The notes below the pieces were generated by a model that saw nothing but the letters and a program-made list of their open reading frames with translations, was not told the DNA's origin and made no database searches. The position numbers and the translations under genes were made by a program. A stretch of 64,000 nucleotides of DNA from an uncultured Bacillota bacterium (lineage in GTDB: Bacteria; Bacillota; Clostridia; Christensenellales; UBA1242). Of this stretch, positions 2,462 through 60,888 are shown piece after piece. Positions within the stretch are counted from its first letter, which is position 1, and each line of letters opens with the position of its first letter. Location: positions 1 through 64,000 of the forward strand of contig CASDUK010000002.1 in the NCBI GenBank assembly GCA_949283975.1, given 5' to 3'.

Positions 2462-2462
2462 A

Positions 2463-2491
2463 GAAAAAAAAGCGGCAAAAATTGCCGCTTT
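2463..2491 (-). terminator. terminator after the FtsX-like permease
   Basis: Ten-base-pair stem AAAGCGGCAA/TTGCCGCTTT (2469-2478 and 2482-2491), followed on the minus strand by a T run. It lies just beyond the permease stop at 2523. Confidence 0.85.
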
Positions 2492-2522
2492 AAATTTAAC
2501 ACTTCATTTATAACAAGTTTAA

Positions 2523-4313: not shown

Positions 4314-4317
4314 CGCG

Positions 4318-5025: not shown

Positions 5026-5049
5026 ATCTTTCTCCAAAAGTTTTAAAAA

Positions 5050-5787: not shown

Positions 5788-5788
5788 A

Positions 5789-6982: not shown

Positions 6983-7006
6983 ACTCTTTCTCCCTTTGTT
7001 ACAAAT

Positions 7007-7035
7007 AGTTTAACACCTTAAAAAAAATTTAACAA
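7007..7035 (-). promoter_or_regulatory. pgk promoter
   Basis: Minus-strand TTGTTA (7030-7035), 17 bp, TAAACT (7007-7012). It lies 24 bp upstream of the pgk start. Confidence 0.55.
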
Positions 7036-7054
7036 ATAATTTTATTAAAAATTA

Positions 7055-7083
7055 TTGCGGAAGTTAAATTTTTGTTGTATACT
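7055..7083 (+). promoter_or_regulatory. promoter of the SPT-like gene
   Basis: TTGCGG (7055-7060), 17 bp, TATACT (7078-7083), followed by AGGAGA at 7101. The AGGAGA abuts ATG 7107 but is well spaced for ATG 7113, which decides the start. Confidence 0.6.
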
Positions 7084-7112
7084 TTTTTTAACTTTTATTT
7101 AGGAGAATGAGA

Positions 7113-8446: not shown

Positions 8447-10077
8447 TCAACTGAAACAATGTAATAATAAACCGGTTGGCCGCCATAAATTGCGGTTACC
8501 TCGCAATTTGGATATTTCTCTTCAAGCGAAGCACGAAGTTTTTCGGCGTCTTCTTCATTTATGTCTTCACCATAGAAAAGAGTTATATTAACGCTTTCTT
8601 CATCAACCAACTTTTCAATCAAATTTTCTGTTGTTGTTTGAACATCGCTTCCCTTTGCCAAAATTGCCTTATCATCAAGGCCAATAATTTCGCCAACAGA
8701 AAGATCAAACCCGTCAACATGCGTTGCTCTAACGGCGTAGGTAACGCTTCCCGCCTTAACGCTTTCAAGTGCGGCTGTCATTGCCTCCAAATTTTCTTCT
8801 GGTGAAACCTCTGGGTTAAACGCAAGTGAAGCTGAAATTCCCTCTGGAACATTCTTTGTTGGAACAACATAAATTGGCTTTTCGGCCAGCGCTTTTGCCT
8901 GTTCTGCTGCTAAAATTATGTTTTTGTTGTTAGGGAAGACAAAAACAGCTTCTGCTGGAACTTTTGAAACAGCATTCGCAATGTCCGCTGCGCTTGGGTT
9001 CATGGTTTGGCCGCCTGCTATAATTTGGTCAACTGTTAAATCTGTAAACAAATTTGCAAGCCCTTCGCCCGGAGCAACAGAAACCATTCCAAGCGGTTTT
9101 AACTCTTCAACTTTTTTCATGTTCTTTTTAAGTTCGCGGTTCTGCTCGCGCATATTTTCAATTTTTATATTCCAAATTTCGCCCAACCCAAGAGCATAGC
9201 CAAGCGCTCTGTTTGGTTCGTTTGTGTGAACATGAACCTTAACTAAGCTTAAATCGCCAATGCAAAGAACAGAGTCGCCAATATCCATAAGTTTTTCGCG
9301 AAGTTTATCAATGTCCGCCTCTGTTGTCTTTTTAAGCATGTGGATAATCATAAATTCTGTGCAATATCCAAATTCAATATCCGCCAAGTTATTGATGTCC
9401 GCAATAACATCATCAACAGATTGAACTGGCTTTGCATCGTCAAAGTTAAAAGTAAGCGTTTCATCGCCGCAAAGGGCTTTGTAATAACCAGTAAAAAGAA
9501 CAATAAGCCCTCTTCCACCGGCGTCAACAACGCCCGCTTTTTTCAAAACAGGCAACATTTCAGGCGTTTTTTGAAGAATTTCTTCGCCCTTGTCTAAGAC
9601 AATTTCCATGAATTCTTCAAAATCTTGGTGTTTTTTAGCCGCCTCGCCAGCCGCCTCTGCCATTGTTCTAATAACAGTTAAAATTGTTCCCTCTTTGGGT
9701 TTTGTAACCGCCTTGTAGGCAATGTTTGCACCTTCTTGAATTGCCTTTGCAAAAATTTTGGTTGTAATTTCCTGGTGTTGCCCCAAAACAGAGGTTAAGC
9801 CCTTTAAAATTTGAGATGTAATAACACCGGAATTTCCCCTTGCCCCTCTTAGCGCGCCTTTTGCATACGCCTCGCAAAGAGAATCCATGCTGTTGTTGAT
9901 GCAATTGTTAACCTCAGAAGAAGCTGACTTAATTGTTAGGAACATGTTTGTTCCCGTGTCCCCATCTGGAACAGGAAAAACATTTAGAGCATCAACAAGT
10001 TTTTTATTTTGTTCAAGCAAGCTAGCGCCTGCCATAATCATTTTCCTAAAAACGGAACCGTTAATCGTTTTTTGCAT
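8443..10077 (-). CDS. fakA: fatty acid kinase catalytic subunit, DAK2-like (YloV)
   Basis: A 544-residue protein of the YloV/FakA family. The N-terminal DhaL-like (DAK2) kinase domain is clear from FPVPDGDTGTN and ALRGARGNSGVI; in DhaL the aspartates of the first motif hold Mg-ATP. A middle domain and a C-terminal YloV domain follow. Known FakA proteins phosphorylate fatty acids bound to FakB (DegV) partners, feeding acyl phosphate to PlsX/PlsY. No fakB is in the window, but plsY is at 27703. The start has AAGGTGG upstream. It follows yloU in the order seen across Firmicutes. Confidence 0.9.
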   Translation of the reverse strand: MQKTINGSVFRKMIMAGASLLEQNKKLVDALNVFPVPDGDTGTNMFLTIKSASSEVNNCINNSMDSLCEAYAKGALRGARGNSGVITSQILKGLTSVLGQHQEITTKIFAKAIQEGANIAYKAVTKPKEGTILTVIRTMAEAAGEAAKKHQDFEEFMEIVLDKGEEILQKTPEMLPVLKKAGVVDAGGRGLIVLFTGYYKALCGDETLTFNFDDAKPVQSVDDVIADINNLADIEFGYCTEFMIIHMLKKTTEADIDKLREKLMDIGDSVLCIGDLSLVKVHVHTNEPNRALGYALGLGEIWNIKIENMREQNRELKKNMKKVEELKPLGMVSVAPGEGLANLFTDLTVDQIIAGGQTMNPSAADIANAVSKVPAEAVFVFPNNKNIILAAEQAKALAEKPIYVVPTKNVPEGISASLAFNPEVSPEENLEAMTAALESVKAGSVTYAVRATHVDGFDLSVGEIIGLDDKAILAKGSDVQTTTENLIEKLVDEESVNITLFYGEDINEEDAEKLRASLEEKYPNCEVTAIYGGQPVYYYIVSVE

Positions 10078-10094
10078 ATTTATCCACCTTATAG

Positions 10095-10445
10095 TTAAAC
10101 ACGGATTCCAACAACGTGGACATTAACAGTGTCCACTATCATACCCGTGAAATTTTCAACACTATATTTAACAGCGCTTTTTAAACTTTCTGCAACAGCG
10201 CTAACTGAAACTCCATATTTTAAAATGCAGTAGATATCAATAAAAATTCTGCTGTCAACACTTGAAATTTTAACACCTTTTGAATAGGGCTGTTTTTTAA
10301 TAAGCTCTGTTAAACTTTCTTTTAAAGAATTTGCAACAAGGTCTACAACGCCATAGCAATCTAGCGCTGCGTAACCCGCAACGACAGCTATGCTTTCATC
10401 TGATATTGTTATTCTTCCATAATAATTTTTAGTATCAACTGTCAT
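10095..10445 (-). CDS. Asp23/Gls24 family protein (YloU)
   Basis: A 116-residue Asp23 (DUF322) protein. The pattern YYGRITISDESIAVVAGYAA near the N-terminus and the repeated beta-strand segments (SRIFIDIYCILKYG, TVNVHVVGI) fit the family. In Firmicutes this small protein sits directly upstream of fakA, as here (17-nt gap), and members have been tied to envelope stress and membrane association. Its exact job is not settled. The RBS is weak. Confidence 0.85.
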   Translation of the reverse strand: MTVDTKNYYGRITISDESIAVVAGYAALDCYGVVDLVANSLKESLTELIKKQPYSKGVKISSVDSRIFIDIYCILKYGVSVSAVAESLKSAVKYSVENFTGMIVDTVNVHVVGIRV

Positions 10446-10609
10446 CTAAAAACCTAAACTAAACAAATTCTTACGAATACTACTATACAACATTTTTAAC
10501 TTTTATGCAACAATTTTATTGAGTTTGAATAAGTATTGCCTCTTTTTAAAAGTCTTAAATCTAACAAATCATTATATGAAAAATATTTTTAGTTAATTAT
10601 AAAATTTAC

Positions 10610-10638
10610 TTGCAATTTTAAAATACTTGTGTTAAACT
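10610..10638 (+). promoter_or_regulatory. rpmB promoter
   Basis: TTGCAA (10610-10615), 17 bp, TAAACT (10633-10638), followed by the RBS CGGAGG about 8 nt before the rpmB start. It is divergent from yloU. Confidence 0.55.
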
Positions 10639-10666
10639 TTGCTAGTATAAAAATTCGGAGGAAATT

Positions 10667-10849
10667 ATGAGCAGAGTTTGTGAAATTTGCGGAAAGGGAA
10701 AAATGAGCGGAAAAAACGTTAGCCATAGCAATAGAAAATCTAACAGAACATGGGGCGTTAACCTTCAACAAACAACAATTGAAGTTGACGGAAAAGAAAA
10801 ATCCGTTCGCGCTTGCACAAAGTGTATTAAAACCCAAAAGAAAGCATAG
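10667..10849 (+). CDS. rpmB: ribosomal protein bL28, zinc-binding form
   Basis: A 60-residue ribosomal protein of normal length. Two cysteine pairs (CEIC near the start and CTKC near the end) mark the zinc-binding C+ form. The core SHSNRKSNRTW is typical. The RBS GGAGGAAAT is strong. It is divergent from yloU-fakA, whereas in Bacillus all three are close and often co-directional. Confidence 0.97.
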   Translation: MSRVCEICGKGKMSGKNVSHSNRKSNRTWGVNLQQTTIEVDGKEKSVRACTKCIKTQKKA

Positions 10850-10851
10850 TT

Positions 10852-10875
10852 AAAGCGGCAACAGTTGCTTTTTAA
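10852..10875 (+). terminator. rpmB terminator
   Basis: Eight-base-pair stem AAAGCGGC/GTTGCTTT (two G-T pairs) with loop AACA, then a T run. Confidence 0.65.
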
Positions 10876-10880
10876 ACAAA

Positions 10881-10904
10881 AGAGCCAAATTAGTTTTGGC
10901 TCTT
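10881..10904 (-). terminator. alaS terminator overlapping its stop codon
   Basis: Stem AGAGCCAAA/TTTGGCTCT. The alaS stop codon (10890-10892) lies in the loop, so the last codons of alaS form one arm of the hairpin. Confidence 0.65.
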
Positions 10905-12692
10905 TTCTAATATTGCTTTAATTCTTCTAACGCCTGCGCTGCTGCTCTCTTCCTTAACTATTTTAAATTTCCCAAGCAAACCTGTTGATTTTGCGTGTGG
11001 CCCGCCGCAAATTTCTCGGCTGACTTCGCCAATTGTATAAACAGAAACATTTTCGCCATATTTGTCGCCAAAAACCCCTGTTGCGCCGCTTGCTTTTGCT
11101 TGATCAAGCGTCATGTTTTCGCAAACAACCGGAATGTTGCTTAAAATGTTTGCGTTAACCTCATCTTCAATTCTTCTAAGTTGCTCTTGGGTTAATTTTT
11201 CTGGGTAATTGAAATCAAAACGCAACCTTTCAGGGGTTATGTTAGACCCCTTTTGAACAATTCCCCCGCCCAAAACTTTGTTTAAAGCGGCAAGCAAAAG
11301 ATGGGTTGCCGTGTGAAGCTTTGCATTTTCTTCGGAAGAATCAATTAGCCCGCCTTTAAATGTTCCAACAGAAATTCTGCTTTTCTCTTGGTGTTCTTTG
11401 AAAGCTGAGTTGAACCCTTCAATGTCAACATCAAAGCCGTTTTCCTTTGCCATTTCAACCGTTAGTTCAACTGGAAAACCAAAGGTGTCGAACAACTTAA
11501 AGGCTTTAGAACCAGAAATTGTCTTAACCTCTGGCGCAAACTTTTTCATATTAGAAATCAACTTTTCAAACTCTTTGTTGCCCTGGATAAGGGTTTTTTC
11601 AAATTTTGAAAATTCGTGCTCCATTTCGGAAAGTATTTGCGCCCTTTTTTTGTTTAGGTTTGGATAAACATCTCCATAAACATCAATAAAATCCTCTGAA
11701 ATTCCTTTCATAAGGTTTGAATCTGCTCCAAGCCCCATGATATATCTAATTGCTCTTCGCATTAGCCTTCTTAAAACATATCCTGCGCCAACATTACTTG
11801 GAACAATTCCTTTCTCGTCGCCAATTAGCATAACAGCAGTTCGAACATGGTCGCAAATTATTCTAATCTGTCGAGTTGTGTTTTCATCTTCGCCATATTT
11901 AACATTACATTCATTTTCAATTCTTTTAACCGCTTTTTCGAAAAGGTCTGTTTGATATGGATCTGAAATTCCGTTAAGGAATGTTAACATTCTCTCAAAG
12001 CCAAAGCCCGTGTCAACATTTTTCTGAGAAAGCTCCTCAAGTTTCCCGCCGGGAAGCTGCTTATATTCCATGTAAACATCGTTTCCAATTTCAACAAATC
12101 TTCCACAAGGGCAATTTATATCACAACTAGGTGAACATTTATTATCATTTTTTGGATAGAACCATTCGTTATCTGGCCCACAAGGCGTGTTGTCAAGACC
12201 TTCTAAATTCCACCAGTTTTCATCTGTGAAATAGATGTTTTCTTTCTTAATTCCATTTTCCAAAAGCAATTTTTCTGTTTCAACGTCTCTTGGAATTTTG
12301 CCCTTGCCGGCAAAAACTGTTGAGCAAATTAAATCCTTTTTAAGCCCAAAAACTTTTGTTAAAAGTTCAATTGAATATGCAACTTTTTCTCTTTTAAAAT
12401 AATCGCCAATGCTCCAATTGCCCATCATTTCAAAAAAGGTGAAATGGCTTTCATCGCCAACATTATCTATATCAACGGTTCTAATGCAGCCTTGAATGTT
12501 GCAAAGCCTTCTTCCCATTTCATGCTCTTTTTCGCCAAGAAGATATGGCATAAGCGGTTGCATTCCAGCAACGTTGAACATAACGCCAGTTTCACCATCT
12601 CCAATTAATGAAACGCTTCCAATGTTTTTATGGCCTTTGCTTTCATAATAGGAAAGCCATTTTTCTCTTAACTCTTTGCTTGAAATTCTCAT
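10890..12692 (-). CDS. alaS: alanyl-tRNA synthetase, short form without C-Ala domain
   Basis: A 600-residue enzyme charging tRNA-Ala; typical bacterial AlaRS is about 870. The class II catalytic core (about 1-240), tRNA-recognition region (about 240-450) and editing domain (about 455-600) are present. The editing domain carries the zinc ligands in HTATH and CGGPH. The protein ends right after the editing domain (SAGVRRIKA), so the DHHA1/C-Ala segment that normally helps dimerise and bind the tRNA elbow is missing. A Cys-rich segment (about 183-203, spaced CSPSCDINCPCG) looks like an extra metal site. No frameshift is seen and a terminator follows at once, so this length looks genuine. Confidence 0.93.
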   Translation of the reverse strand: MRISSKELREKWLSYYESKGHKNIGSVSLIGDGETGVMFNVAGMQPLMPYLLGEKEHEMGRRLCNIQGCIRTVDIDNVGDESHFTFFEMMGNWSIGDYFKREKVAYSIELLTKVFGLKKDLICSTVFAGKGKIPRDVETEKLLLENGIKKENIYFTDENWWNLEGLDNTPCGPDNEWFYPKNDNKCSPSCDINCPCGRFVEIGNDVYMEYKQLPGGKLEELSQKNVDTGFGFERMLTFLNGISDPYQTDLFEKAVKRIENECNVKYGEDENTTRQIRIICDHVRTAVMLIGDEKGIVPSNVGAGYVLRRLMRRAIRYIMGLGADSNLMKGISEDFIDVYGDVYPNLNKKRAQILSEMEHEFSKFEKTLIQGNKEFEKLISNMKKFAPEVKTISGSKAFKLFDTFGFPVELTVEMAKENGFDVDIEGFNSAFKEHQEKSRISVGTFKGGLIDSSEENAKLHTATHLLLAALNKVLGGGIVQKGSNITPERLRFDFNYPEKLTQEQLRRIEDEVNANILSNIPVVCENMTLDQAKASGATGVFGDKYGENVSVYTIGEVSREICGGPHAKSTGLLGKFKIVKEESSSAGVRRIKAILEKSQN

Positions 12693-12708
12693 TCTTCTTA
12701 TCCTTAAA

Positions 12709-13422
12709 TCAATCTCTGCTAATTATAACAAGCAGAAGAAATCTAATTAAATTTAAAACACCCAAAACCAACGCAGCAACATATGTTAACCCCGCCGCTC
12801 TTAAAACTTTTTTGCAACCTGGAAGCTCTGTTGAATCCAAAATTTGAGTTTCTCTTAAAATTTTAAGCGCTCGATTAGAGGCGTTATATTCAACGGGCAG
12901 CGTTATCAAATTTATTACAATTGCCAAAAAGAAAAACACAACTCCAGCCAAAATGAAAATCATTCCCAAAAGGCCATCTAGCCAAAGAAAGTTAAACAAA
13001 ATTCCAAGAATAACCATTGGCCAAAGGAGGGTTGAAACAAAATTTGTGAACCTAACTGCTCCGTTTCTTAATTTTGCAGGGAAATATTTTCTGTTATGTT
13101 GAATTGCATGGCCAACCTCGTGAAGAGCAATTCCAAGCGCGGCAATTGAATCGGATTCCGCAACCTCTTCTGAAAGCGAAACGCAATTTTTTGAAGGGCT
13201 GTAATTGTCTGTTAACTTTCCGTGGATAACATTAATTGTAACCTGTTCAAGATTGGCCCCGTCCAAAACCCGCCTTGCCGCATCTTTTGCTTTAATTCCA
13301 CTCTTTGCCTTAACTTTGCTAAAATAATGATAGGCAGAGTTAACTTTTGCTTGGGCAACAGCCGCAAGAATAATTCCCGGCAAAAGAACAATTCCAAGTA
13401 AAATATACTGCCAATAAAGCAT
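12709..13422 (-). CDS. YugP-type membrane zinc metallopeptidase (1)
   Basis: A 237-residue membrane protein of the neutral zinc metallopeptidase family PF04298 (YugP). It has an N-terminal helix (about 3-22), the zinc-binding HEVGHAIQH (about 102-110), and three hydrophobic helices in the C-terminal half. It probably cuts membrane or exported proteins; no substrate is known to me. AAGGAGG stands 6 nt before ATG. A second member precedes it at 13435 with a 12-nt gap, so the two are a tandem pair in one transcript. Confidence 0.88.
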   Translation of the reverse strand: MLYWQYILLGIVLLPGIILAAVAQAKVNSAYHYFSKVKAKSGIKAKDAARRVLDGANLEQVTINVIHGKLTDNYSPSKNCVSLSEEVAESDSIAALGIALHEVGHAIQHNRKYFPAKLRNGAVRFTNFVSTLLWPMVILGILFNFLWLDGLLGMIFILAGVVFFFLAIVINLITLPVEYNASNRALKILRETQILDSTELPGCKKVLRAAGLTYVAALVLGVLNLIRFLLLVIISRD

Positions 13423-46254: not shown

Positions 46255-46893
46255 ATGAGCCTAAAATTTGTTTATTATTTCGTTCTTATTCTATTGTTTG
46301 CTGGGTTTGCAGTTTGCGTAATTCCAATTCCAACCCATCAAATTGGATATGATGCTCTTTCTGAAACAGAAAAAGAACTTTACAATGATGCATACGAAAC
46401 CGAAAACTCGCCTTTTTATGACGCAGAATCTAACGGCCAAGTTATAAGCGAAATTGGAAATGTTGTAAATTTAGATTGGTTTGATGTTGTTGACAACTTT
46501 TTTACCAAATACACTCTTGTTGCAAGAGTTATTGATGTTGAAACAAAGAAATCATATTATGTTAAAAGGGTTGGAGGCTACAACCACGCAGACGTTCAAC
46601 CAATTGATTCCAAAAACACAGAAATTATGAAAAGCCTTTACAACGGTGTTTGGAGTTGGGCTCGCCGCGCGGTTTGGGTTGAAATTAACGGAACATATGT
46701 TGCCGCTTCTATAAACGGAATGCCCCACGGTTACACGCTTATTGAGGGCAACAACATGGACGGCCACACTTGCATCCACTTTCTAAACAGCAAAACCCAT
46801 GGAACAAAGCGCGTTGATGAAGCCCATCAAAACGCAGTTGCAACAGCATATGCACGAAAAGACGAGCTTTACAAGTTTTTGTTAAATAATTAA
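46255..46893 (+). CDS. exported protein with an L,D-transpeptidase-like HG...HxC motif
   Basis: A 212-residue protein with an N-terminal signal anchor (about 5-26) and an extracytoplasmic domain. The segment NGMPHGYTLIEG followed by GHTCIHF resembles the catalytic His and SHGC-Cys of YkuD-type L,D-transpeptidases (His and Cys 14 residues apart), though GH-T-C replaces SHGC. A nearby SWARRAVWVEING precedes it. It could crosslink or trim peptidoglycan. No SD is evident. The assignment rests on this motif only. Confidence 0.5.
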   Translation: MSLKFVYYFVLILLFAGFAVCVIPIPTHQIGYDALSETEKELYNDAYETENSPFYDAESNGQVISEIGNVVNLDWFDVVDNFFTKYTLVARVIDVETKKSYYVKRVGGYNHADVQPIDSKNTEIMKSLYNGVWSWARRAVWVEINGTYVAASINGMPHGYTLIEGNNMDGHTCIHFLNSKTHGTKRVDEAHQNAVATAYARKDELYKFLLNN

Positions 46894-46915
46894 AGCCACA
46901 AAATTGTGGCCTTAA
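46894..46915. terminator. hairpin between convergent genes
   Basis: Stem AGCCACAA/TTGTGGCC-like followed by short A/T runs, between the exported protein and the MreB-like gene. The T tract is weak. Confidence 0.5.
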
Positions 46916-47910
46916 AAATTATCAATAATTTCTAAAAGTAATTTTTTGTTTGAAAGAAGTTTTCCCGCCGCAATCAGCGGCGCGTTGTCGCCGTCTGGAA
47001 TTACATTAACTTTAATTTGAAGTTTCTTTGCCAAAAACTTTGAAAGCCCCAAAATTGATGAAAGCCCGCCCGAAACAAAAATTCCCTCCTGTGCAACATC
47101 GCCCGAAACTTCTGGCGGACAAACATTTAATGTTGTTTCAATTGCCGAAATAATGTTATCCATAAAAGTTTGTAGCATTGGAAAGATTTCTTCGCTTGAA
47201 ACAACAATTTGTTTTGGCTTTCCGCTCGCCTCGTCAATTCCAATTACACTTGAGGTTCTAACATCTCCCTCAACCAACGTTGCAATTTCTTCTTTAAGCC
47301 GCTTTGCGCTTGCAATGCTAATTTCAACCTTGTGTTTCTTTGAAATGTATTGCGCAATTTCAATATCTAAATATCTTCCGCCAAGTTCAATTGAACAGCC
47401 CTTTAAAATTGAATTCATGTTAATTGCTGCAACATCTGTTAGCGTTCCGCCAATGTGGACGCAAAGCTTTGTTTTGCTCTGCTCAACTTCGCCCGTTGCA
47501 TATGCGCTGCAAACAACAGTTGGAATTAAGCAAACTTTTCCAATTCCGGCAATTTTTGCTGCGCGAGCATAGTCTTTTTTTGCCTCATCTGAAATTCCTG
47601 TTGGAACTAAAATAATTGCACTTTCCTTTGGAAATTTCCTTAGTTCAACTTTTCTAAAAAAATATTTAAGCATTTCCGCCGTGTAATCAAGGCTTTTAAC
47701 TTCTCCGCAAACAACAGGGCTAAAAATGTAAGTTGAATCGTTTGTTTTTCCCTGAAGTTTTTCTGCGTCAAACCCAATTGCTTTAATTTCATATTGCTGG
47801 CCAACATTCGCTGCGCAAACCAGGCTTGGCTCTTTTAAAACAAGCCCTTGCCCTCTTCTGTAAATAAGCGTGTTAACTCCGCCAAATTCAATTGCTAAAT
47901 TAAAAGCCAT
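46912..47910 (-). CDS. divergent MreB-like actin-fold protein
   Basis: A 332-residue protein that aligns by eye along the whole MreB/Mbl family (NTLIYRRGQGLVLKEPS, LKYFFRKV, VPTGISDEAKK, ISSEE-like region, VSGGLSSILGLSKFLAKK). The nucleotide motifs are altered. Phosphate 1 is EFGGVNT instead of D(L)GT.NT, phosphate 2 is HIGGTLTD instead of DIGGGTT, and the EEP catalytic segment reads IPT. It may bind nucleotide without hydrolysis, or be a pseudo-actin. Last gene of a four-gene operon, one base after the protease gene. It is probably not the main MreB. Confidence 0.8.
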   Translation of the reverse strand: MAFNLAIEFGGVNTLIYRRGQGLVLKEPSLVCAANVGQQYEIKAIGFDAEKLQGKTNDSTYIFSPVVCGEVKSLDYTAEMLKYFFRKVELRKFPKESAIILVPTGISDEAKKDYARAAKIAGIGKVCLIPTVVCSAYATGEVEQSKTKLCVHIGGTLTDVAAINMNSILKGCSIELGGRYLDIEIAQYISKKHKVEISIASAKRLKEEIATLVEGDVRTSSVIGIDEASGKPKQIVVSSEEIFPMLQTFMDNIISAIETTLNVCPPEVSGDVAQEGIFVSGGLSSILGLSKFLAKKLQIKVNVIPDGDNAPLIAAGKLLSNKKLLLEIIDNF

Positions 47911-47911
47911 G

Positions 47912-49087
47912 TTAATTTATTATTGCCAGTTCGACAATATTTCCTCCTCTGTTAACTTTAAATATTGCGTTTTGAGCGTAAAGCAAGTTTAGTCTTGCAT
48001 ATCTAAACGAATTATTATCCCAAACTTCAAAGGTTTCTGTTCCATCGGCAGTTTGAATTTTAACTTCAACTATAACATCTCCAACTTGAAGGCCGCTGAT
48101 AAGACACGAATTTTCAATTCCAGTTACATAAAGCCCTTCTTCTTCAAAACCAACAGAGGTTTGAGACATGCTATCTAAAACAGAGTCCGTTCCGGTGAAC
48201 CCAAGAACAATTTCCTCTGTTTTTGAGCCTGATTCATAGTAATTTTCAACAACTTTGTCCAAAACGGCAATTGCCGGATAGATTGAAACAGCAAAGAAAA
48301 GAGAGTTTGCATCGTCATCTCCAAGCGTGTTTAACCCAATTACATTTCCGTCCATGTCAATTAGCGCCCCGCCGCTGTTGCCGTGGTTAATTGATGCATT
48401 GTGTTGAATTAGATGTTCATACACATTAGTTTCCGAAGTTGCAACTCTCAATATAGTTGAAGAAATGTCTCCAATTGTTGCTGAGGCATGATAGGATTTT
48501 TGATTTCCAACAGTTATAACCTGCTCTAAAACCCCAATCCTCTCCTCATCGCTGCAATAAATTGTTCTATCTTTAAGTTTTGCAGCCGGAAGAGAGGCAA
48601 ATTCCTCGCAAATTATAATTGCCATGTCGAAAACAGAGTTTTCCCACAAAATTTCAGCTGGATAATATGTTTCACCTCCATCTTGGCTAACATAGCATTG
48701 ATAATAAACATTTGTTGCGCCATAGGAAACAGGGTCTGCCAAAACATCTTCAATAACATGATAGTTCGTTAAAATAAAACCGCCGGTGTGAACAACAAAT
48801 CCACTTCCATAGCTTGATAGTTCCATAGATTTAGAACTTCCATCATTTATTTCCGTTACTTGATATATTAAAACAGTAAAAGAAATATCAATATATTTTT
48901 GTGCAATTTCAGAAGCAGTGCTCCCCTCTTCAACCGTTATTGGCGTGTTTTCTTGATATTGCGAAACATGCTGAGAATTTCCGCCTGTTATTGTTGAAGA
49001 AACAGGGCCAAATATTTCGCATCCGCTAAAAGCAAAAACGCAACAAATTAAAAATGCAAAAACACTTAAAATTCTGGCCTTTTCCAT
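47912..49087 (-). CDS. trypsin-like lipoprotein protease (HtrA/DegP-like)
   Basis: A 391-residue protein. A lipobox (FSGC, Cys about 23) ends the signal peptide, so it should be a membrane-anchored lipoprotein outside the cell. The catalytic triad is visible: His in LTNYHVIED, Asp in VFDMAIII, Ser in GNSGGALID. A PDZ-like region follows (about 310-391, ISGLQVGDVIVEV). Its ATG shares a base with the stop of the upstream gene (TAATG). As an HtrA-type protease it may respond to envelope stress. Confidence 0.88.
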   Translation of the reverse strand: MEKARILSVFAFLICCVFAFSGCEIFGPVSSTITGGNSQHVSQYQENTPITVEEGSTASEIAQKYIDISFTVLIYQVTEINDGSSKSMELSSYGSGFVVHTGGFILTNYHVIEDVLADPVSYGATNVYYQCYVSQDGGETYYPAEILWENSVFDMAIIICEEFASLPAAKLKDRTIYCSDEERIGVLEQVITVGNQKSYHASATIGDISSTILRVATSETNVYEHLIQHNASINHGNSGGALIDMDGNVIGLNTLGDDDANSLFFAVSIYPAIAVLDKVVENYYESGSKTEEIVLGFTGTDSVLDSMSQTSVGFEEEGLYVTGIENSCLISGLQVGDVIVEVKIQTADGTETFEVWDNNSFRYARLNLLYAQNAIFKVNRGGNIVELAIIN

Positions 49088-50601
49088 TAAATAACCTCAA
49101 TAAACTTGGTGAAAACCTTTTTAAAGTTTTTGTTAACTTTCATTGCTTCTTTAATCTCAAAATCTGCATCTTTGTTAACAATTGTTTTAACAATTATTGA
49201 GTCTCCCAAAATGTCGCAATTAAGGTCATCAACAGCCCCGCTCTTGCTTGCATCAAGAGCCGCGGAAAGTTGGATTAAAACACCAACCTTTTTAACAGCA
49301 ACAGAATCTTCTTCTGTTACCAAACTTGAATATCTAATCCACTCTGAAAGATTGAAATTGTCAAGGTCTTGAAGTTTGCATGCAAATGCTCCAAGCAAAA
49401 TTTCTTTCTGAGAAGCCCCTTTAATTTTTGAATTTAAAATAACTTCAAAAGAATTTTTAACCGCGTTGTCAAAGTTAATTCTCTTTCCGCAGTCATATAA
49501 ATAACCTGCAATTCTAAGAGGTTTAATATAGTTCCTTGGAAGTTTGTGAACAACTTTAAGTTGTTTAAAAACATTAATTGAAAGCTCATAAACTTTGTCG
49601 TTGTTTGAATTTGGGCCAGAGAAAAACGCGCTTATGTTTTCCAAACTGTAAATAAACATATCGCTAAGCGGACGCTCGTTAATTGCAGGAACTACCGATG
49701 TTGAAATCAAACCATCTAAAATTTTGTCTGCACTAATTGAAACTTGTTTTGCGCCAAGGCTGTCAATAAACAATTTGGCCAAAATTGCCCCTGCAAAAAC
49801 CCTGTCTGCGCTTTCAGAACTAATTCCCTTAATTTTTTTTGTGCTATCAAGCCCAAGACCTTCAACCAAAGAATAGACGCTATTAAAATTTTCAAGTGAA
49901 AGAACATAGTTGTTTTCCATTTCAAGCGGATATCTTGTTGCCTTTCTTGCAATTTTCCCAATTGAAAGCATTGTGCTTCCGCTTGTTAAAATTTCCGTTT
50001 CCGCGTCAATTGATTTTACAAAATCTGCTTTGGAAAAATATGAATTAAACAGGTTTGAAATTTCCTGTTTTTTTTCTTGAATGTTGCCCTCTGAATTCAA
50101 AATTTTTGCAACTTGAAAAACCCCAAATGGGAAAATAACAGAATTTAAAATGTTCCTCCTGTTAAAGCTTAAAAGATAGCAAAACCTTGAACCAACATAG
50201 AAATAAACGCCCTTTTGAACATCGCTTGAGTTAACCGCGCCAATAAAAGTGTTTTTCATTTCATCTTCACGGGTTAAAATGTTTAGCAAAAAGCCGCAAG
50301 TGTTATATATTTCTTCAGAAATGCTCTTGTTGTTTTTTGCCTCAGCAAAAAAACTTCCCGAATAGGAATAGATTTCTGTTATGGAATTATTATCGCAAAT
50401 TCTGCGATACATTTTTAAAATCTTCAAAAGATCTTTTATTAAAACTGGCCTTAAAATTCCGTTCTTGTCAATGTCTTCAACAAGCGGAATTGAATCTGAA
50501 AAAACATCAACAATGTTGAAATATAAGTTATCTTTACATTCAATCAAAACTAAATTAACATTTTCATGATCAATTTGAATAATTGCCTTCTTTGTCGTCA
50601 T
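49087..50601 (-). CDS. degenerate Ppx/GppA-like protein with HD-like C-domain
   Basis: A 504-residue protein resembling exopolyphosphatase/pppGpp phosphatase in layout: N-terminal actin-like domains, the SADRVFAGAILAKLF and VSADKILDGLI helices, then a C-terminal HD-like domain (about 340-440). Key motifs are lost. The phosphate loop DxGGGS is YVGSRFC, and the HD motif is YDCG. Enzyme activity is therefore doubtful and a sensing or scaffolding role is likely. Start ATG 50601 (MTTKKA) has AGGAGAAAT; a longer frame is rejected. It follows the ferredoxin by 7 nt. Confidence 0.7.
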   Translation of the reverse strand: MTTKKAIIQIDHENVNLVLIECKDNLYFNIVDVFSDSIPLVEDIDKNGILRPVLIKDLLKILKMYRRICDNNSITEIYSYSGSFFAEAKNNKSISEEIYNTCGFLLNILTREDEMKNTFIGAVNSSDVQKGVYFYVGSRFCYLLSFNRRNILNSVIFPFGVFQVAKILNSEGNIQEKKQEISNLFNSYFSKADFVKSIDAETEILTSGSTMLSIGKIARKATRYPLEMENNYVLSLENFNSVYSLVEGLGLDSTKKIKGISSESADRVFAGAILAKLFIDSLGAKQVSISADKILDGLISTSVVPAINERPLSDMFIYSLENISAFFSGPNSNNDKVYELSINVFKQLKVVHKLPRNYIKPLRIAGYLYDCGKRINFDNAVKNSFEVILNSKIKGASQKEILLGAFACKLQDLDNFNLSEWIRYSSLVTEEDSVAVKKVGVLIQLSAALDASKSGAVDDLNCDILGDSIIVKTIVNKDADFEIKEAMKVNKNFKKVFTKFIEVI

Positions 50602-50608
50602 ATTTCTC

Positions 50609-50779
50609 CTAATCCTCAATTTTAATTGCGCCAACTGGGCACATTCCCTCGCAAGAATGACACTTAATACACTTGTTAGGATCTATGTGGGCCTTTCCGT
50701 CATTACCCCAAGAAATTGCGTTAACTGGGCAAATATCGATGCATGTTCCACAAGATATACACTTATTTTTATCTACCAT
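50609..50779 (-). CDS. 2[4Fe-4S] ferredoxin
   Basis: A 56-residue clostridial-type ferredoxin starting MVDKNKC. It has two complete CxxCxxCxxxCP sites (CISCGTCIDICP and CIKCHSCEGMCP). AGGAGAAATTT precedes ATG 50779. First gene of the four-gene operon leading to the MreB-like protein. It could serve the [FeFe] hydrogenase, but its operon partners are not redox enzymes. Confidence 0.95.
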   Translation of the reverse strand: MVDKNKCISCGTCIDICPVNAISWGNDGKAHIDPNKCIKCHSCEGMCPVGAIKIED

Positions 50780-50789
50780 AAATTTCTCC

Positions 50790-50814
50790 TATGCTACGCT
50801 TGAATTTTAGCATA
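50790..50814. promoter_or_regulatory. inverted repeat (operator-like) at the ferredoxin operon promoter
   Basis: Perfect arms TATGCTA (50790-50796) and TAGCATA (50808-50814) with 11 bp between. On the minus strand, TTTACA, 17 bp, TAAAAT forms the promoter and its -10 overlaps the upstream arm. The repeat could be a repressor site or a 5' hairpin just before the RBS. Confidence 0.55.
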
Positions 50815-50849
50815 GAATAAAAATTTTGTAAAGCAAACTGAGGGCTATT

Positions 50850-51227: not shown

Positions 51228-51590
51228 TTAAATTAAAAGCCTAACGCCGGCGGCAAGAACAACAAGAATGAAAACAATTCTAACAATTTTCCCGTTGAGT
51301 TTTGAAAGCAGAAATGCGCCAAGTGCTCCGCCCAAAACAAACCCTCCGCCAACAAATCCAAACATTGGCCAATCTATTCTAACTTTTATTACATAGACAA
51401 TAATTGAAAAGAGTGCAATTGGAAGCATAACGGCAAGCGCAGTTGAATGGGATTTTTTATTATCGACATTTAAAACCTTTTCAAGAAGTGGAACGCAAAT
51501 CATTCCACCTCCGCCCCCGAAAAAACCATTTGCAATTCCAATTGCAAATCCGCTTAAAATTAAAACAACTTTATCCTTAAACTTTTTCAT
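51228..51590 (-). CDS. TauE/SafE (TSUP) transporter, first half
   Basis: A 120-residue membrane protein with the motif NGFFGGGGGMICVPLL and four helices. It is the upstream partner of the gene at 50850, from which it is separated by 9 nt. The start at ATG 51590 has no clear SD. Confidence 0.85.
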   Translation of the reverse strand: MKKFKDKVVLILSGFAIGIANGFFGGGGGMICVPLLEKVLNVDNKKSHSTALAVMLPIALFSIIVYVIKVRIDWPMFGFVGGGFVLGGALGAFLLSKLNGKIVRIVFILVVLAAGVRLLI

Positions 51591-51636
51591 AATCAAAACT
51601 TATTATCTTGAATTTTTAAATTTTTATTAAATTGCT

Positions 51637-51692: not shown

Positions 51693-53732
51693 ATGACAAC
51701 AAAAAAATCTTTTACAAAACTTATAATTTGCTTGCTTTTGATCCTTGCGCTTTTTCCAATTGGATATGCAACAACACTTTATGCAGCAGATGATGACAAA
51801 GAGAAAATTGAATTTTCAATTGAGGATTTAATCAATCAAAACGGAGAAGGCTCTGAAAACAGCCAAGAACTAACCTCTGGCCTTGGGCTAAACCTAAACT
51901 TTGAAAGCAATTCAAAAGATGGCTGGACAATTCCAAATTTTGCTGGAACAGAAATTGTTCAAGCTGGTGTTGGAGATTTTACTAGCGAAGACGGAATTTT
52001 TACTTATGGAGGAGAAAGCATAACCGGAGTTTCAATTGGAACAGACGGAACTGAAGGAAACAAATTTGGCCTTGTTTTCTATTTAAACGATAAGGGAATT
52101 GCTGGAATTGAAAGCCCAGAGTTAACAATCCCCGCCCATGCATACTATGTTTTAACTTTCAATGTTAAAGTTGCAGAGCTTGGAAACAGCGGAACAAACT
52201 ATGGAATAAACGCAAAGCTGGTCAACCAAGCAACCGGCGATGTTATAGCCATGAATGCAATTAAAACAGAATCTGAAGATTATGTAACCTATGCTTTCTT
52301 AATTCAAGGAAACGAGTTTAGCGAAACAAAAGTTAAACTCCAACTTCTCTTCGGAAACGCAGTTGAAACAGACGGCGTAACAACGAAAAGCGAACAAATT
52401 GGCTATGCTGCGGTTGATACAATTAGGCTTTTCAGCGTAACATATGAACAATTTATCAACTTAACAGAAGACGACAACGCCAAACAAGTTTCCTATCTAA
52501 CCCAAAACAGCAACTATGTTTTTATTGATAACGGATATTTTAACATAACAGAAAACCAAAATTGGAACATAGATAACTACACTACTCTTTCCGACCTTCG
52601 CCCACTTAACTGGGCTCAAAGCCAAGCCGGCGGCGAAACAGATTGGGGAATTATCAACACAAATAAAACAATTTTTGAAACAATAATAAAAAATCTTGGG
52701 CTTTCTGCAACAAACCCAAAGAATGCAGACGGCTCGAGCATAGAAAATTCAAACAACAATGTTTTAATGTTAACCAATCTAAACGGCCATCAAACAATTA
52801 CAAGTTCTGAAATTGTTCTAACAAAAAACAAATATTACGAAATTCAATTTAAATTTAACACCCAAGCAACAAAGGATCAAACAAACCCATTAAGCTTTTA
52901 TATAGTTGATTCCAATGACAGAACAATCTATTCAAAAGAAAACGTCTTTTCCTATGTTGAATACAGCGAGAACAGCAACGAATGGGCAACCTTCCACGCC
53001 TTTATAAAAATTGACGGAACGGACAAAAAAGTTAACTTTATAATTGAATTTGGAACGGAAGAAAATCCAACAACCGGTGTTGTGTTTATTGACGATGTCC
53101 GTTTGATAACAAAATCAAGCGCCTCAGCTGTTTTTGTTAACAACGAAGAAAACAAATATTTGTTAAAGGCAGAAGAAGGCCAAACAGAGGCCGAATATCT
53201 TCCAACCGGCGCAATAACTTTTGACGATCTTTTAAATTTAGATCAAACTTCTGAAACAAACAGAAACCTTGTTGCTTTTACTTATGATGTTCCAGAAGAA
53301 ACGCCAACCGATGACCCAGAGGAAGATAAAGACGATGACGAAACGCCGGCGGCCGACCCCTCAATTGCATGGTATATTGTCCCCTCAATATTGCTTGCTG
53401 TTGCTTTAATTGCCGGAATTGTGTTATATTATGTTAAGAAAATTAAAATTAAAAAGCCAAGAAAAAAATCTAAAAACCAATATGACCGAAACAAAACTTT
53501 AAACAAACAAGTTGAAAAGCGCGAGCGCGAACAAAAGGCGCTTGAAAAACAAAATCTTGATGCCCAGCTTGAGCAAGTTAGAAGTGAAATTAAATCTCTT
53601 GAAGAAAAATATGAAAGTTCTAAAAAAGCAAAAACCAACATGAAAGATTTAAAAGCATATCTTGCAAAGCGCCAAAAACTTCAAAACAAAGAGGCAACGC
53701 TTTTAGAGCAAATTGAAAAATTGTCTAAATAA
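51693..53732 (+). CDS. surface protein: two carbohydrate-binding-like domains, membrane helix, coiled coil
   Basis: A 679-residue protein. Signal peptide about 1-31 (ending ATTLYAA). Two beta-sandwich regions (about 65-250 and 285-490) each pair an ENxxFE/NITE-like start with an AVDTIRLF or FIDDVRLI end, the signature of galactose-binding-like CBM folds. Then come an acidic linker, one membrane helix (about 565-588), a basic stretch and a cytoplasmic coiled coil (about 610-679). The long cytoplasmic coil is unusual for a plain surface adhesin. Monocistronic with its own promoter and a strong terminator. No known family name. Confidence 0.75.
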   Translation: MTTKKSFTKLIICLLLILALFPIGYATTLYAADDDKEKIEFSIEDLINQNGEGSENSQELTSGLGLNLNFESNSKDGWTIPNFAGTEIVQAGVGDFTSEDGIFTYGGESITGVSIGTDGTEGNKFGLVFYLNDKGIAGIESPELTIPAHAYYVLTFNVKVAELGNSGTNYGINAKLVNQATGDVIAMNAIKTESEDYVTYAFLIQGNEFSETKVKLQLLFGNAVETDGVTTKSEQIGYAAVDTIRLFSVTYEQFINLTEDDNAKQVSYLTQNSNYVFIDNGYFNITENQNWNIDNYTTLSDLRPLNWAQSQAGGETDWGIINTNKTIFETIIKNLGLSATNPKNADGSSIENSNNNVLMLTNLNGHQTITSSEIVLTKNKYYEIQFKFNTQATKDQTNPLSFYIVDSNDRTIYSKENVFSYVEYSENSNEWATFHAFIKIDGTDKKVNFIIEFGTEENPTTGVVFIDDVRLITKSSASAVFVNNEENKYLLKAEEGQTEAEYLPTGAITFDDLLNLDQTSETNRNLVAFTYDVPEETPTDDPEEDKDDDETPAADPSIAWYIVPSILLAVALIAGIVLYYVKKIKIKKPRKKSKNQYDRNKTLNKQVEKREREQKALEKQNLDAQLEQVRSEIKSLEEKYESSKKAKTNMKDLKAYLAKRQKLQNKEATLLEQIEKLSK

Positions 53733-56839: not shown

Positions 56840-58033
56840 CTATCTATCTCTTTTAATTTTCCTAAGGAATGGCGGAATGTCTGCCTCCTTGATTGAAATT
56901 CTTGATGTTGGAGCTTCAACAGGCCTCTCTGGCGCTCTTTCAACCGGGGTTTCAACTTGCCTTCTAACACCCAAATCAATTGCCTCGCTTTGAGCATATT
57001 GGTCATACTTCTTCTTGTCAAACCCGCCATATGCTTCAACTTCTTCGCGCGCCTTCTCAACCTCTTCTGGTTCTTCTTCTGGAAGGGCTTTAAAGCCGGT
57101 TGCAATAATTGTTATTTCAACCTCGTCGCTCATTGCTTCATCAATTGCAGCGCCGAAAATTATGTTACTTTCTTGGTCAACAACTTCTTTAACAAGGTCA
57201 ACCGCTTCATAAACTTCGTCAAGCGGCAAATCGTTTCCGCCTTTAACATTGATTAAAACACCTGTTGCGCCCTCAATTGTTGTTTCCAAAAGCGGGCTTG
57301 AAACAGCCTGTCTAACAGCTTCAATTGTTTTATTTTCGCCCGTTCCGCGGCCAATTCCCATGTGGGCAAGCCCCTTGTTTTTCATAATTGATCTAACATC
57401 TGCAAAATCCAAATTGATTAAACTTGGGGTAACAATCAAATCTGAAATCCCTTGAATTCCCTGACGCAAAACATCGTCTGCATATCTAAACGCCTCAACA
57501 ATTGGCGTTCCTTTTGGAACAAGCTTTAAAAGCTTGTCGTTTGGAATTACAACAAGTGTGTCAACATATTTGCTAAGATTTTCAAGGCCAAGCTCTGCAT
57601 TTTCCATTCTCTTTCTTCCCTCGAAATTGAACGGTTTTGTTACAACGGCAATTGTTAAAATTCCCATTTCCTTTGCAATTTGAGCAACAACTGGCGCAGC
57701 GCCTGTTCCTGTTCCTCCGCCCATTCCCGCGGTTATGAAAACAAGGTCGGAATCCTTTAACATTTCTGTTATGCTTGCCTTAGATTCTTCAGCAGCTTTT
57801 TGGCCAACTTCTGGGTCTGCGCCCGCTCCAAGCCCACGCGTTAATTTTTCGCCAATTTGAAGGCGCAAGTCTGCCTTGCTCATTAAAAGAGCTTGTTTAT
57901 CCGTGTTAATTGCAACAAACTGGGCGCTTGTTATGTTTGCGTTAATCATTCTGTTAACTGCGTTATTTCCGCCTCCGCCAATTCCAACAACTTTAATGTT
58001 TGCAACTGGTCCAATGCTGCTTTCTGAATACAT
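56840..58033 (-). CDS. ftsZ: cell division protein FtsZ
   Basis: A 397-residue tubulin homologue. The GTP signature [10 protein letters not shown], the N-terminal [15 protein letters not shown], the T7 loop (NLDFADVR) and the C-terminal peptide [11 protein letters not shown] that binds FtsA are all present. It follows ftsA by 11 nt. Confidence 0.97.
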
Positions 58034-58044
58034 ATTACTTCTCC

Positions 58045-59199
58045 TTATTTAAAAAATTTAGTAAACCAATTTTTTGCTTGATTCTGTTTTTTTAGCGCTT
58101 CGCTTAAAACGCTTATTGAACTTGAGAAATGTGGTTTAGCAAAGGCAGGAATATTGGGGGCAAGAATTTTAATTTCTTTTCCCAAACATTCTTCAAGATA
58201 TTCTCTACCTCCAGTTATATACGAAAGTCCGCCTCCTGTCAAGTAAACTTGGGCATTTTCCAAATTTTGTTCCGAAATTTTCTGAAAGCACCTTTTTATT
58301 AAAGATGCAAACATTTCAATTCTTTCTCTAACTATTTCATTTGCAGAAACAATTGGCACAAGCAAAACTTGATTTTCAACATTAACTTCATAATTTCCCA
58401 CCTTTTTTGAATTCACACTTAAAACTATTTCATTTTTTAATTTTTCTGCTTCAGAAAAACTAATGTCAAACGCCTCGCAAAAATCTCCGCTTATGTGCGC
58501 GCCGCCCAGCGAAAATGAATTTAAGCCCGCTAGCCCCTCGCCCAAAACGCCGCTTACGCTTGTTGTTATGTAACCAACATCAACAACAACCGCGCCCCTT
58601 TGCCTTTCAACTTGGTCAAGCAAAAAATCTGACTGAGCAAGCGGAGCTGAAATGTATTCAACAGAAACAATTCCTGCCTCTCCCAAAACCTGATTAAAAG
58701 TTGAAATAAAAGAATTTTCAACATAAATCAAACTAACTTTTGCGCGAAGTTTGTTGCTCTTTTGTTTTTCAACATCAAAAATCTTTCGCCCATCGTCAAG
58801 TTTAAACCAAAGTGTTCTGCAAGAGAGCAATGTTTTTGTTTTCATAAGCTCTTTGTTTAGCGCTTTTGAATATAGATAGGAAACATCTTCTTCTCCAATC
58901 GTAACCCGTTTTTTAAAGTTTGTTTCAACTTCTGTGCAATCACAAAAAGAAAACTCAGCCGGAACACCAACAAAAATTGCCTCAATTTTCATGCCCGCCT
59001 GTTTCTCTGCATTTGAAATTGCAAGCGCAGCAGCATATTTTAGGTTTTCTGGCTCTAAAAATTCGCCCTCAGCAAAACCGGCATATTCGCTTTCGCCAAC
59101 GCCTTTAATGATAAAGGAATTGTTAACGCCGCTTTGGCCAATTAAAACGCTTATTTTAGACGAACCAACATCCATTATTGCTGCGCATTTCTTTGGCAT
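58045..59199 (-). CDS. ftsA: FtsA-like division protein
   Basis: A 384-residue actin-fold membrane anchor for FtsZ. The N-terminal [14 protein letters not shown], an SHS2-like region (about 80-160), GGAHISGD and [11 protein letters not shown] support FtsA, and the C-terminal amphipathic NWFTKFFK is the membrane-targeting helix. The phosphate-2 motif is DVGYITTS instead of DIGGGTT, so nucleotide handling may be altered. AAGGAG stands before ATG. A consensus promoter lies upstream. Confidence 0.85.
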
Positions 59200-59994: not shown

Positions 59995-60888
59995 TTATCT
60001 TTCAACAAAACTATATGCAAAATCTCCATTTGCGTTTTGATAAATCATTAAATATGTTCCTTCTAAAAGGCTTGGCTCGTTAGCGGCTGCTGTTAGCGCA
60101 CTGTAAAGAACGGAAATTTTTTCTGGCAAATTAATTTCCGCGTCAACAATTTGAAATTCATAGCCGCTTCTGTCAACAAGCCTTAAACACGTTCTCCAAA
60201 CATAATTCCCCTCCGAAATTCGCTCTGGCCTATAGAAAATTTCAAACTGCTCAAACTGGCTTTTAACATATGAAATTTCCCTGTTATTCTGCTCAAATGC
60301 GGTTAAAACCGAGGTTGAAATTTTTTGCATCTTATCTGCAAAATATGAGCTTTGGCTGCTTCCAAGCGTTAAAAACTGGCCTGTTTCAGAGGAAGAAAGG
60401 TTGAGGTTTAGTTTTGTTGCGTAATATTGCCCTGTTTGCTCGTTGTAATCTATTCCCTCAAATTCAAACGAAACAAGAGAATCGTCCTTAGAATTGGAAA
60501 TTCTTAAAATTTTAAATTCCTCATCTAAAATGTAATATTTTCCGTTGGACTCAATTGAAAAAAGCTCTTCTCTTTCCGCGCAATGAATTACAAATTTGTT
60601 TGGAATTTTAGTTTCAATGTTAACAATTTTTAAGTATGGAAATTGCTTTTCAAGCTCACTAACAATTTTATCTTTATTTATAAAAAGAACGCTTCCCCCA
60701 TAGGAAAGGGTTTTTTGCTCAATTTGCTCCGTTTGCTCCGCTGTTATGTTTAAAGTTTCTGTTTTAAAAGAAAGCTCAACACTTTTCAAAGAAAAAAGCG
60801 TGAACATAAGAATTATAATAACAATAATAATTGCTAATATAACAGAACTTATAATTAACGCTTTTTTATGTTTTTTAACAAATTCCAC
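59995..60888 (-). CDS. ftsQ: FtsQ/DivIB-like division protein
   Basis: A 297-residue bitopic protein. A short cytoplasmic N-terminus, membrane helix (about 12-34), a POTRA-type domain (about 35-105, with FPYLKIVNIETKIPNKFVI) and a DivIB beta domain. It starts at GTG 60888. An extended -10 (TGATATAAT) lies exactly 6 nt upstream with no SD, a leaderless GTG start. Confidence 0.8.
   Translation of the reverse strand: MEFVKKHKKALIISSVILAIIIVIIILMFTLFSLKSVELSFKTETLNITAEQTEQIEQKTLSYGGSVLFINKDKIVSELEKQFPYLKIVNIETKIPNKFVIHCAEREELFSIESNGKYYILDEEFKILRISNSKDDSLVSFEFEGIDYNEQTGQYYATKLNLNLSSSETGQFLTLGSSQSSYFADKMQKISTSVLTAFEQNNREISYVKSQFEQFEIFYRPERISEGNYVWRTCLRLVDRSGYEFQIVDAEINLPEKISVLYSALTAAANEPSLLEGTYLMIYQNANGDFAYSFVER

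Follow-up and report, generated by a model that had tools for sequence, protein, structure and literature searches.

An MreB without its catalytic glutamate and a degenerate Ppx/GppA-like protein in what looks like the remnant of an older cell-envelope gene cluster in the family UBA1242

The stretch of DNA studied here (the window; 64,000 nucleotides (nt), positions 1 to 64,000 of contig CASDUK010000002.1, assembly GCA_949283975.1) derives from an uncultured bacterium of the Clostridia family UBA1242 (order Christensenellales). It carries on its minus strand a row of four genes whose products Pfam and NCBIfam assign as a ferredoxin, a Ppx/GppA relative, an HtrA-like protease and MreB. The first gene (50609..50779) encodes a 4Fe-4S ferredoxin of 56 amino acids (aa; Pfam 4Fe-4S ferredoxin families), the second (49087..50601) a Ppx/GppA-like protein of 504 aa from its ATG (Ppx-GppA, PF02541, 45.9 bits; cut-off 27), the third (47912..49087) a 391-aa HtrA/Do-like serine protease with a lipobox-like signal (Trypsin_2, 76.3 bits), and the last (46912..47910) a 332-aa MreB (MreB_Mbl, PF06723, 226 bits). 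The tight packing described in an initial annotation of this sequence was confirmed: a 7-nt gap, a 1-nt overlap (TAATG) and a 1-nt gap separate the genes. The same annotation placed all four behind one promoter, and a promoter-like site does precede the ferredoxin gene (TTTACA-17-TAAAAT, with TG ahead of the second hexamer; 50804..50832, minus strand); a terminator-like hairpin of 11 pairs directly follows mreB (46890..46915, minus strand). Both are consensus matches only and constitute weak evidence, since such sites are no commoner in the window than in shuffled sequence (17 versus 14.3 promoter-like and 4 versus 4.4 terminator-like sites), and the claim of a single transcript thus rests on gene spacing.

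We searched 60 genomes, including that of the window (G000; 893 kb in 7 contigs, 98% complete): 36 from UBA1242, hereafter the family, which span 32 genera and are about 1 Mb in size, and 24 from other families of the order. The window MreB matches CcMreB chains over its full length (E about 1e-45). The initial annotation had raised the matter of a second, canonical mreB elsewhere in the genome; an MreB profile search of G000 found none, returning besides the window protein only a 613-aa frame (C1:167114-168157), which is taken as DnaK on the basis of its length and the profile's kinship with Hsp70. We number MreB residues as in CcMreB, with an offset of 7 to the aligned chain that we take from the construct. 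The Glu-27-Thr-2-Glu spacing in this chain equals that of E140, T167 and E169 as given in passages of PMC9597168. In the window protein the Asp of the DLGT motif is replaced by E8, E140 by T131, D162 by H152, T167 by L157 and E169 by D159. The degenerate phosphate-loop motifs noted earlier are therefore borne out, both phosphate-loop Asp being replaced, and the catalytic Glu and Thr are replaced as well. Motifs that are intact and simply shifted were ruled out, as adjacent columns align with those of intact relatives. The ATP hydrolysis motif E-T-X-[D/E] is absent from the window MreB, in which the acidic residue alone is kept (Asp159). According to passages of the published work, this motif occurs in 95.8% of MreBs outside Spiroplasma (PMC9597168), and E140 and T167 position the attacking water within the MreB filament (PMC4051119). 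The loop that aligns with the presumed membrane-insertion site reads LRKFPKES in the window protein.

One MreB per genome, scoring 111-267 bits, was found in 31 of the 36 family genomes, and G001 holds only a fragment. In the residue counts, for which four alignment rows were removed beforehand (two fragments and two FtsA-like rows), 30 of 31 family MreBs lack the catalytic Glu, and the complete E-T-X-[D/E] motif is seen in only one of the 31. Ser, Asn, Thr, Cys, Gln, Arg or Ala stands in place of the Glu, with no common substitute. The phosphate-loop Asp residues are also often missing: that of the second loop (P2) is lost in 19/31 sequences, and that of the first (P1) is kept in 11/31, one sequence not covering the site. 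An acidic residue at the E169 position persists in 29/31. Of 86 positions that hardly vary among 12 canonical MreBs, 20 stay the same in 80% or more of 30 family sequences (further rows of L099, L102 and L108 having been left out of this analysis); most of these are glycines, and the Glu is missing from all 30, a set that does not include the fragment L099. The fold glycines and Lys 213 (reference numbering) are mostly conserved.

This pattern accompanies a reduced elongation machinery. MreC gave no match in G000 and a match in 1 of 36 family genomes (G031), compared with 8 of 24 genomes from other families; the G031 match is read as contamination because its contig bears a second rplS, and guanine-plus-cytosine content did not set that contig apart from the others. 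No second full-length FtsW/RodA was found in any of the 36 family genomes, where further matches are short C-terminal pieces, and G000 has one FtsW/RodA and one PBP_dimer protein. FtsW/RodA was not found in G016 and G029 and is split in G018; a single PBP_dimer protein was found in 34/36 family genomes and none in G016 and G033. The eight MreC-bearing genomes of other families, by comparison, each yield two to four FtsW/RodA matches, and seven of them three or four PBP_dimer proteins (G038 has one). Their best MreBs score 443-482 bits in seven cases and 374 bits in G038, and their MreBs keep the Glu in 12/14 and the P2 Asp in 14/14 rows. In the MreC-less genomes of other families, 11 of 19 MreB rows are without the Glu and 8 keep it; five of these eight are tandem extra copies (G037 and G053), and G041, G045 and G057 contribute one each. 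MreC loss thus mostly accompanies Glu loss, and the link is not strict, with G038, G041, G045 and G057 breaking it. In a midpoint-rooted MreB tree, drawn without support values, the family and the divergent MreBs of MreC-less genomes separate from canonical and tandem copies, and copies from G053 and G055 fall among the family sequences. The tandem arrays, two or three Glu-keeping MreBs in MreC-less genomes (G037:C4:98911-100969, locus L104; G053:C85:5733-8836, locus L105), form a branch of their own and occur in addition to a divergent MreB.

The Ppx-like protein has also lost its active-site motifs. It is the only match to the Ppx-GppA profile in G000, and its match to domain III (21.4 bits) lies under the cut-off of 27.3. 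Its best match among solved structures, by sequence, is chain 6pc1, a guanosine pentaphosphate phosphohydrolase, over residues 8-401 of 504. As had been proposed from the sequence, both phosphate motifs are lost (P1, DLGSNS, reads QIDHEN; P2, GGGS, reads GSRF), with adjacent columns aligning to those of intact relatives, and so is the HD motif (LHD reads LYD, HD thus YD). Ppx-like proteins were matched in 54/60 genomes and occur in the full form of about 500 aa in 48 (34/36 in the family and 14 from other families). The GGG is kept in 0/34 family sequences versus 12/14 from other families, the P1 Asp in 1/34 versus 14/14, and the HD in 6/34 versus 14/14. The family shows 31 different triplets at P2, with no new consensus, and keeps the second Glu of the EE pair in 18/34 sequences; in a Ppx tree rooted on G046 and G047, without support values, it forms one clade. 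We compared column conservation in 32 family and 14 other-family sequences (L034 and L035 left out; columns counted with 27 residues ahead of the ATG included). Block averages give a mean of 0.46 in the family versus 0.73 in other families over columns 26-175, and 0.62 versus 0.68 over columns 376-525; the family sequences are more numerous and more diverged, so that it is the contrast between the halves that matters. Constraint has shifted within the protein, the C-terminal half being the better conserved. PPK1 was not found in any of the 36 family genomes. RelA/SpoT is present in G000; it was not found in 14/36 family genomes, all of which keep the Ppx-like protein.

The HtrA-like lipoprotein retains its catalytic residues. 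Its N-terminus bears the lipobox-like FSGC, and the intact triad reported earlier is present (TNYHV, FDMA and GNSGG), His, Asp and Ser being kept in all six aligned HtrA sequences. No Pfam PDZ domain was matched at E 0.1, and the degP_htrA_DO profile aligns residues 77-346. We fetched the surroundings of the 48 full-length ppx loci and of 9 of 10 weak matches (the second match of G042, a weak one, was left out), and the htrA counts cover these loci rather than whole genomes. Within them, htrA occurs in seven family loci (three from the genus of G000, and G016, G023, G035 and G030) and lies directly upstream of mreB in all seven, including G030, where ppx is on another contig. In six of the seven it stands between ppx and mreB, and the same six have the short ferredoxin. 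G043 holds a more distant HtrA match (91 bits).

Comparison of the loci suggests where this arrangement came from. The initial annotation had proposed looking for the same gene order elsewhere; the full ferredoxin-ppx-htrA-mreB order was found in six genomes of four genera (G000, G004, G002, G016, G023 and G035). More widely, mreB follows ppx within 1.5 kb on the same strand in 21/34 family loci and 4/14 from other families, and htrA lies between them in 6 of those 21 family loci; 13/34 family loci have no mreB near ppx, in one of which (G001) the contig ends after ppx. A short ferredoxin lies directly upstream of ppx in 21/34 family loci and 0/14 others, and so goes with the family, including G005 and G021, in which no MreB was found. 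In G025 of the family and in 4/14 other-family loci, a long RnfB-like frame occupies this place, and the short ferredoxin may derive from RnfB by shortening or be a small ferredoxin of separate origin. Locus L056 runs TauE halves, Rnf genes, ppx, maf, mreB, minD, minE and an M50 peptidase gene (ppx, maf, mreB, the MinD-type ATPase, MinE, M50 and RnfC checked with Pfam). In L065 of the family (from G025), the TauE halves and divergent Rnf genes are followed by ppx and mreB, then by genes of MinD/MinE type, a 175-aa gene and one of M50 type, and further along by rplU/ysxB/rpmA-like genes named by eye; L054 carries an M23 peptidase gene where L065 has the 175-aa gene. No single locus holds every one of these elements; together they resemble the Bacillus order maf-mreB-minD-spoIVF-rplU. 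The Rnf-Nqr profile found nothing in G000 or in 33/36 family genomes; the family matches are two full ones in G013 and a weak one each in G025 and G029. The divergent Rnf operon of L065 spans 8665-12891, and its Rnf-Nqr match scores 28.6 bits versus 168-231 in other families. Given the Rnf-ppx-maf-mreB-min order of relatives, we read the window operon as the residue after loss of Rnf, maf and min there. An old cluster of cell-envelope genes seems to have eroded here, and htrA to have been inserted into it in one subclade.

Both degenerate proteins look protected by selection. Between G000 and G004, in which seven neighbouring genes are 87-98% identical, the ratio of nonsynonymous to synonymous substitution rates (dN/dS) comes to 0.031 (mreB), 0.043 (ppx), 0.097 (htrA) and 0.075 (ferredoxin gene); the slice used for the last had two surplus bases at its end, which touch this value only. 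The relatives form a graded series: both proteins intact, MreB without the Glu and Ppx intact, both active sites lost, and MreB gone. Joint degeneration of MreB and Ppx was considered and rejected, as nine genomes of other families combine an MreB without the Glu with a Ppx that keeps the GGG, and the split among the 19 MreC-less MreB rows described above also counters it. Ppx is kept in G005 and G021, which lack an MreB match, and G029 conversely has an MreB but gave no Ppx match. Since each gene is found without the other, the two are not an obligate pair and point to two separate non-catalytic roles. The order of events would then be loss of the MreB Glu while Ppx was intact, as in other families, and loss of the Ppx active site at the base of the family; htrA would later have entered one subclade, and MreB would have been lost in a few genera.

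We favour the reading, at a probability of about 0.58, that the operon is a remnant of this old cluster, that MreB and the Ppx-like protein are kept by selection as non-catalytic scaffold or binding proteins, and that the genes stand together mainly for historical reasons. The older cluster would have held an Rnf complex, ppx, maf, mreB, minD, minE and an M50 peptidase gene, with the window operon as its leftover. To judge from their sequences, both proteins most likely survive in non-catalytic form. MreB may act as a stable filament that hydrolyses ATP very slowly or not at all, or as a membrane-associated scaffold, and would serve division or sporulation rather than rod growth, in the manner of Spiroplasma MreB3. 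The Ppx-like protein may be kept for binding a ligand or partner, chiefly through its C-terminal half, and not for phosphatase activity. The ferredoxin would be a general electron carrier at the RnfB position, and the HtrA lipoprotein an ordinary, active envelope protease that arrived beside mreB in one subclade.

Several observations weigh against this reading. No MreB was found by profile search in two of the 36 family genomes (G005 and G021), and the matches in G007 and G018 are partial and doubtful. The one family MreB that keeps the Glu, fragment L099 of G003, belongs to the same genus as G000 and has the full motif. G038 has MreC, yet both of its MreBs (L107 and L108) lack the Glu and carry Lys and Arg instead; G041, G045 and G057 keep the Glu without an MreC match, and these three have no 500-aa Ppx. 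The evidence for selection comes from one close pair; between G000 and G002 synonymous sites are near saturation, with MreB 36% and Ppx 69% identical, and MreB may be disappearing in some genomes. The ferredoxin-ppx and htrA-mreB pairings persist fairly well, and this might reflect true links in function. AlphaFold models, finally, had a mean predicted local distance difference test score of 42 (MreB) and 31 (Ppx-like protein) and were discarded, leaving no structure.

Other explanations account for parts of these data. It is unlikely, in our estimate, that either protein is still an enzyme with a rebuilt active site, MreB as a slow ATPase relying on other residues or Ppx with a different ligand: the acidic residue at the position of E169, the fold glycines, Lys 213 and the second Glu of the Ppx EE pair would suit such a site, whereas the water-positioning Glu of MreB has no common substitute and the 31 triplets at the Ppx P2 position give no new consensus. 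We regard neutral decay of both proteins into pseudogenes as improbable. The shrinking genome, the divergence of MreB within the genus (G002) and its apparent absence from G005 and G021 would fit decay, but none of the 34 family Ppx matches contains a stop, Ppx is present in 34 of 36 genomes, in-frame stops occur in only 2 of 31 MreB matches (G006 and G030, whose open frames measure 326 and 333 aa), and dN/dS is 0.03-0.04 in the close pair.

Joint functions were also weighed. The dead actin and the pseudo-phosphatase Ppx, with HtrA in one subclade, might assemble a static membrane scaffold that marks the division or sporulation site, which we hold to be a rather slim possibility. Equally doubtful to us as decay is a true HtrA-MreB pair, in which the protease would act on a zone of the envelope marked by MreB, or depend on such a zone; the invariable position of htrA directly upstream of mreB, even in G030, speaks for it, and its confinement to a single subclade (five genera) within the loci examined, as opposed to whole genomes, speaks against it. 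The initial annotation went further and saw an envelope-sensing unit in which two pseudo-ATPases scaffold HtrA, with the ferredoxin as redox input. A single tight operon, degenerate motifs in both proteins, the four-gene order in several genera and the stable ferredoxin-ppx and htrA-mreB pairs fit that idea. A dedicated four-gene unit is nevertheless not supported, as the genes are often separate in relatives: either of ppx and mreB can be present alone, their losses were sequential, and more than a third of the family loci lack mreB near ppx. The ferredoxin occupies the place of RnfB, a position that speaks for history instead while leaving room for a redox input. We consider the sensing unit very improbable.

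Upstream of the operon, and in many relatives too, lie two TauE-like halves (PF01925; 50850..51218 and 51228..51596, both on the minus strand). Beyond them, a divergently transcribed gene (51693-53732) encodes a 679-aa protein with no Pfam match; its relatives, mostly 970-1250 aa where uncut, adjoin TauE halves in many genomes (a 24-member cluster). The window also encodes FtsZ and FtsA (56840-59199) and an FtsQ-type POTRA protein (59995-60888; 24.7 bits, cut-off 23), and the FtsZ division genes are thus in place.

Repeats were seen near ftsW in several genomes. Downstream of ftsW in L127 (G008:C27:53000-62000), positions 1881-7085 hold a head-to-tail row of unrelated single genes, among them a GH10 glycosidase, three GNAT acetyltransferases, a rhomboid-like protein and unknowns. 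Between most of them lies a repeat of about 155 nt that copies the 3' end of ftsW, in six copies 0.75-1.4 kb apart that are 60-100% alike to the reference copy. The arrangement resembles the cassette array of an integron, apparently with the end of ftsW as attachment site; no integrase was seen among its open reading frames of at least 90 aa over 9 kb, no integrase profile search having been made. Repeats of the same kind occur in L128 (G014:C7:1000-8500) at 1363-4927, and G001, G002, G009 and G017 each have one extra ftsW-end fragment. In G000, about 6 kb downstream of ftsW, L126 (G000:C1:36000-47000) carries at 9111-9617 four copies of a 113-nt repeat spaced by about 130 nt.

Among described systems, the closest parallel to the window MreB is Spiroplasma MreB3, which in passages of PMC9597168 lacks the E-T-X-[D/E] motif, has a very slow ATPase and forms stable filaments. 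The sequence fits such a parallel; the substitutions differ, however (the Glu and Thr have become Thr and Leu here, but Asp and Lys in MreB3), and Spiroplasma has five MreBs and no wall, whereas G000 has a single MreB together with FtsZ, FtsA, FtsW and a penicillin-binding protein (PBP). The full-length profile match and the maf, minD and minE order of relatives recall the Rod-complex MreB of Escherichia coli, Bacillus subtilis and Caulobacter, from which G000 differs in having no MreC match, no second FtsW/RodA or PBP_dimer protein, and replaced catalytic residues. As described in part of PMC10591338, reduced intracellular bacteria keep MreB, and division in Chlamydia depends on it; G000 likewise is a reduced genome that keeps MreB with few or no elongasome partners, but Chlamydia is without FtsZ, and G000 has FtsZ and FtsA. 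In the literature surveyed by titles and the starts of abstracts, no MreB-Ppx link or pseudo-MreB was reported for this lineage, and the main text of PMC12306168, on the family UBA1242, mentions MreB once in the part covered, for two other lineages. The family as described there agrees with what was seen here in genome size, in the number of genera and in the sporulation-type M50 peptidase of relatives. The Ppx-like protein resembles Ppx/GppA enzymes over residues 8-401, with a weak domain III, and differs from them in its lost P1, P2 and HD motifs and in the lack of a PPK1 match in the family. HtrA shares the trypsin-like domain and triad of HtrA/DegP proteases and differs by its lipoprotein-like N-terminus and the absence of a PDZ match at the Pfam threshold.

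MreB is generally seen as a dynamic ATPase that works with the Rod complex. A lineage (28 genera sampled) with a single MreB, without MreC and near-always without the catalytic Glu, would show which part of MreB function depends on neither, and the graded series of relatives makes the order of losses testable.

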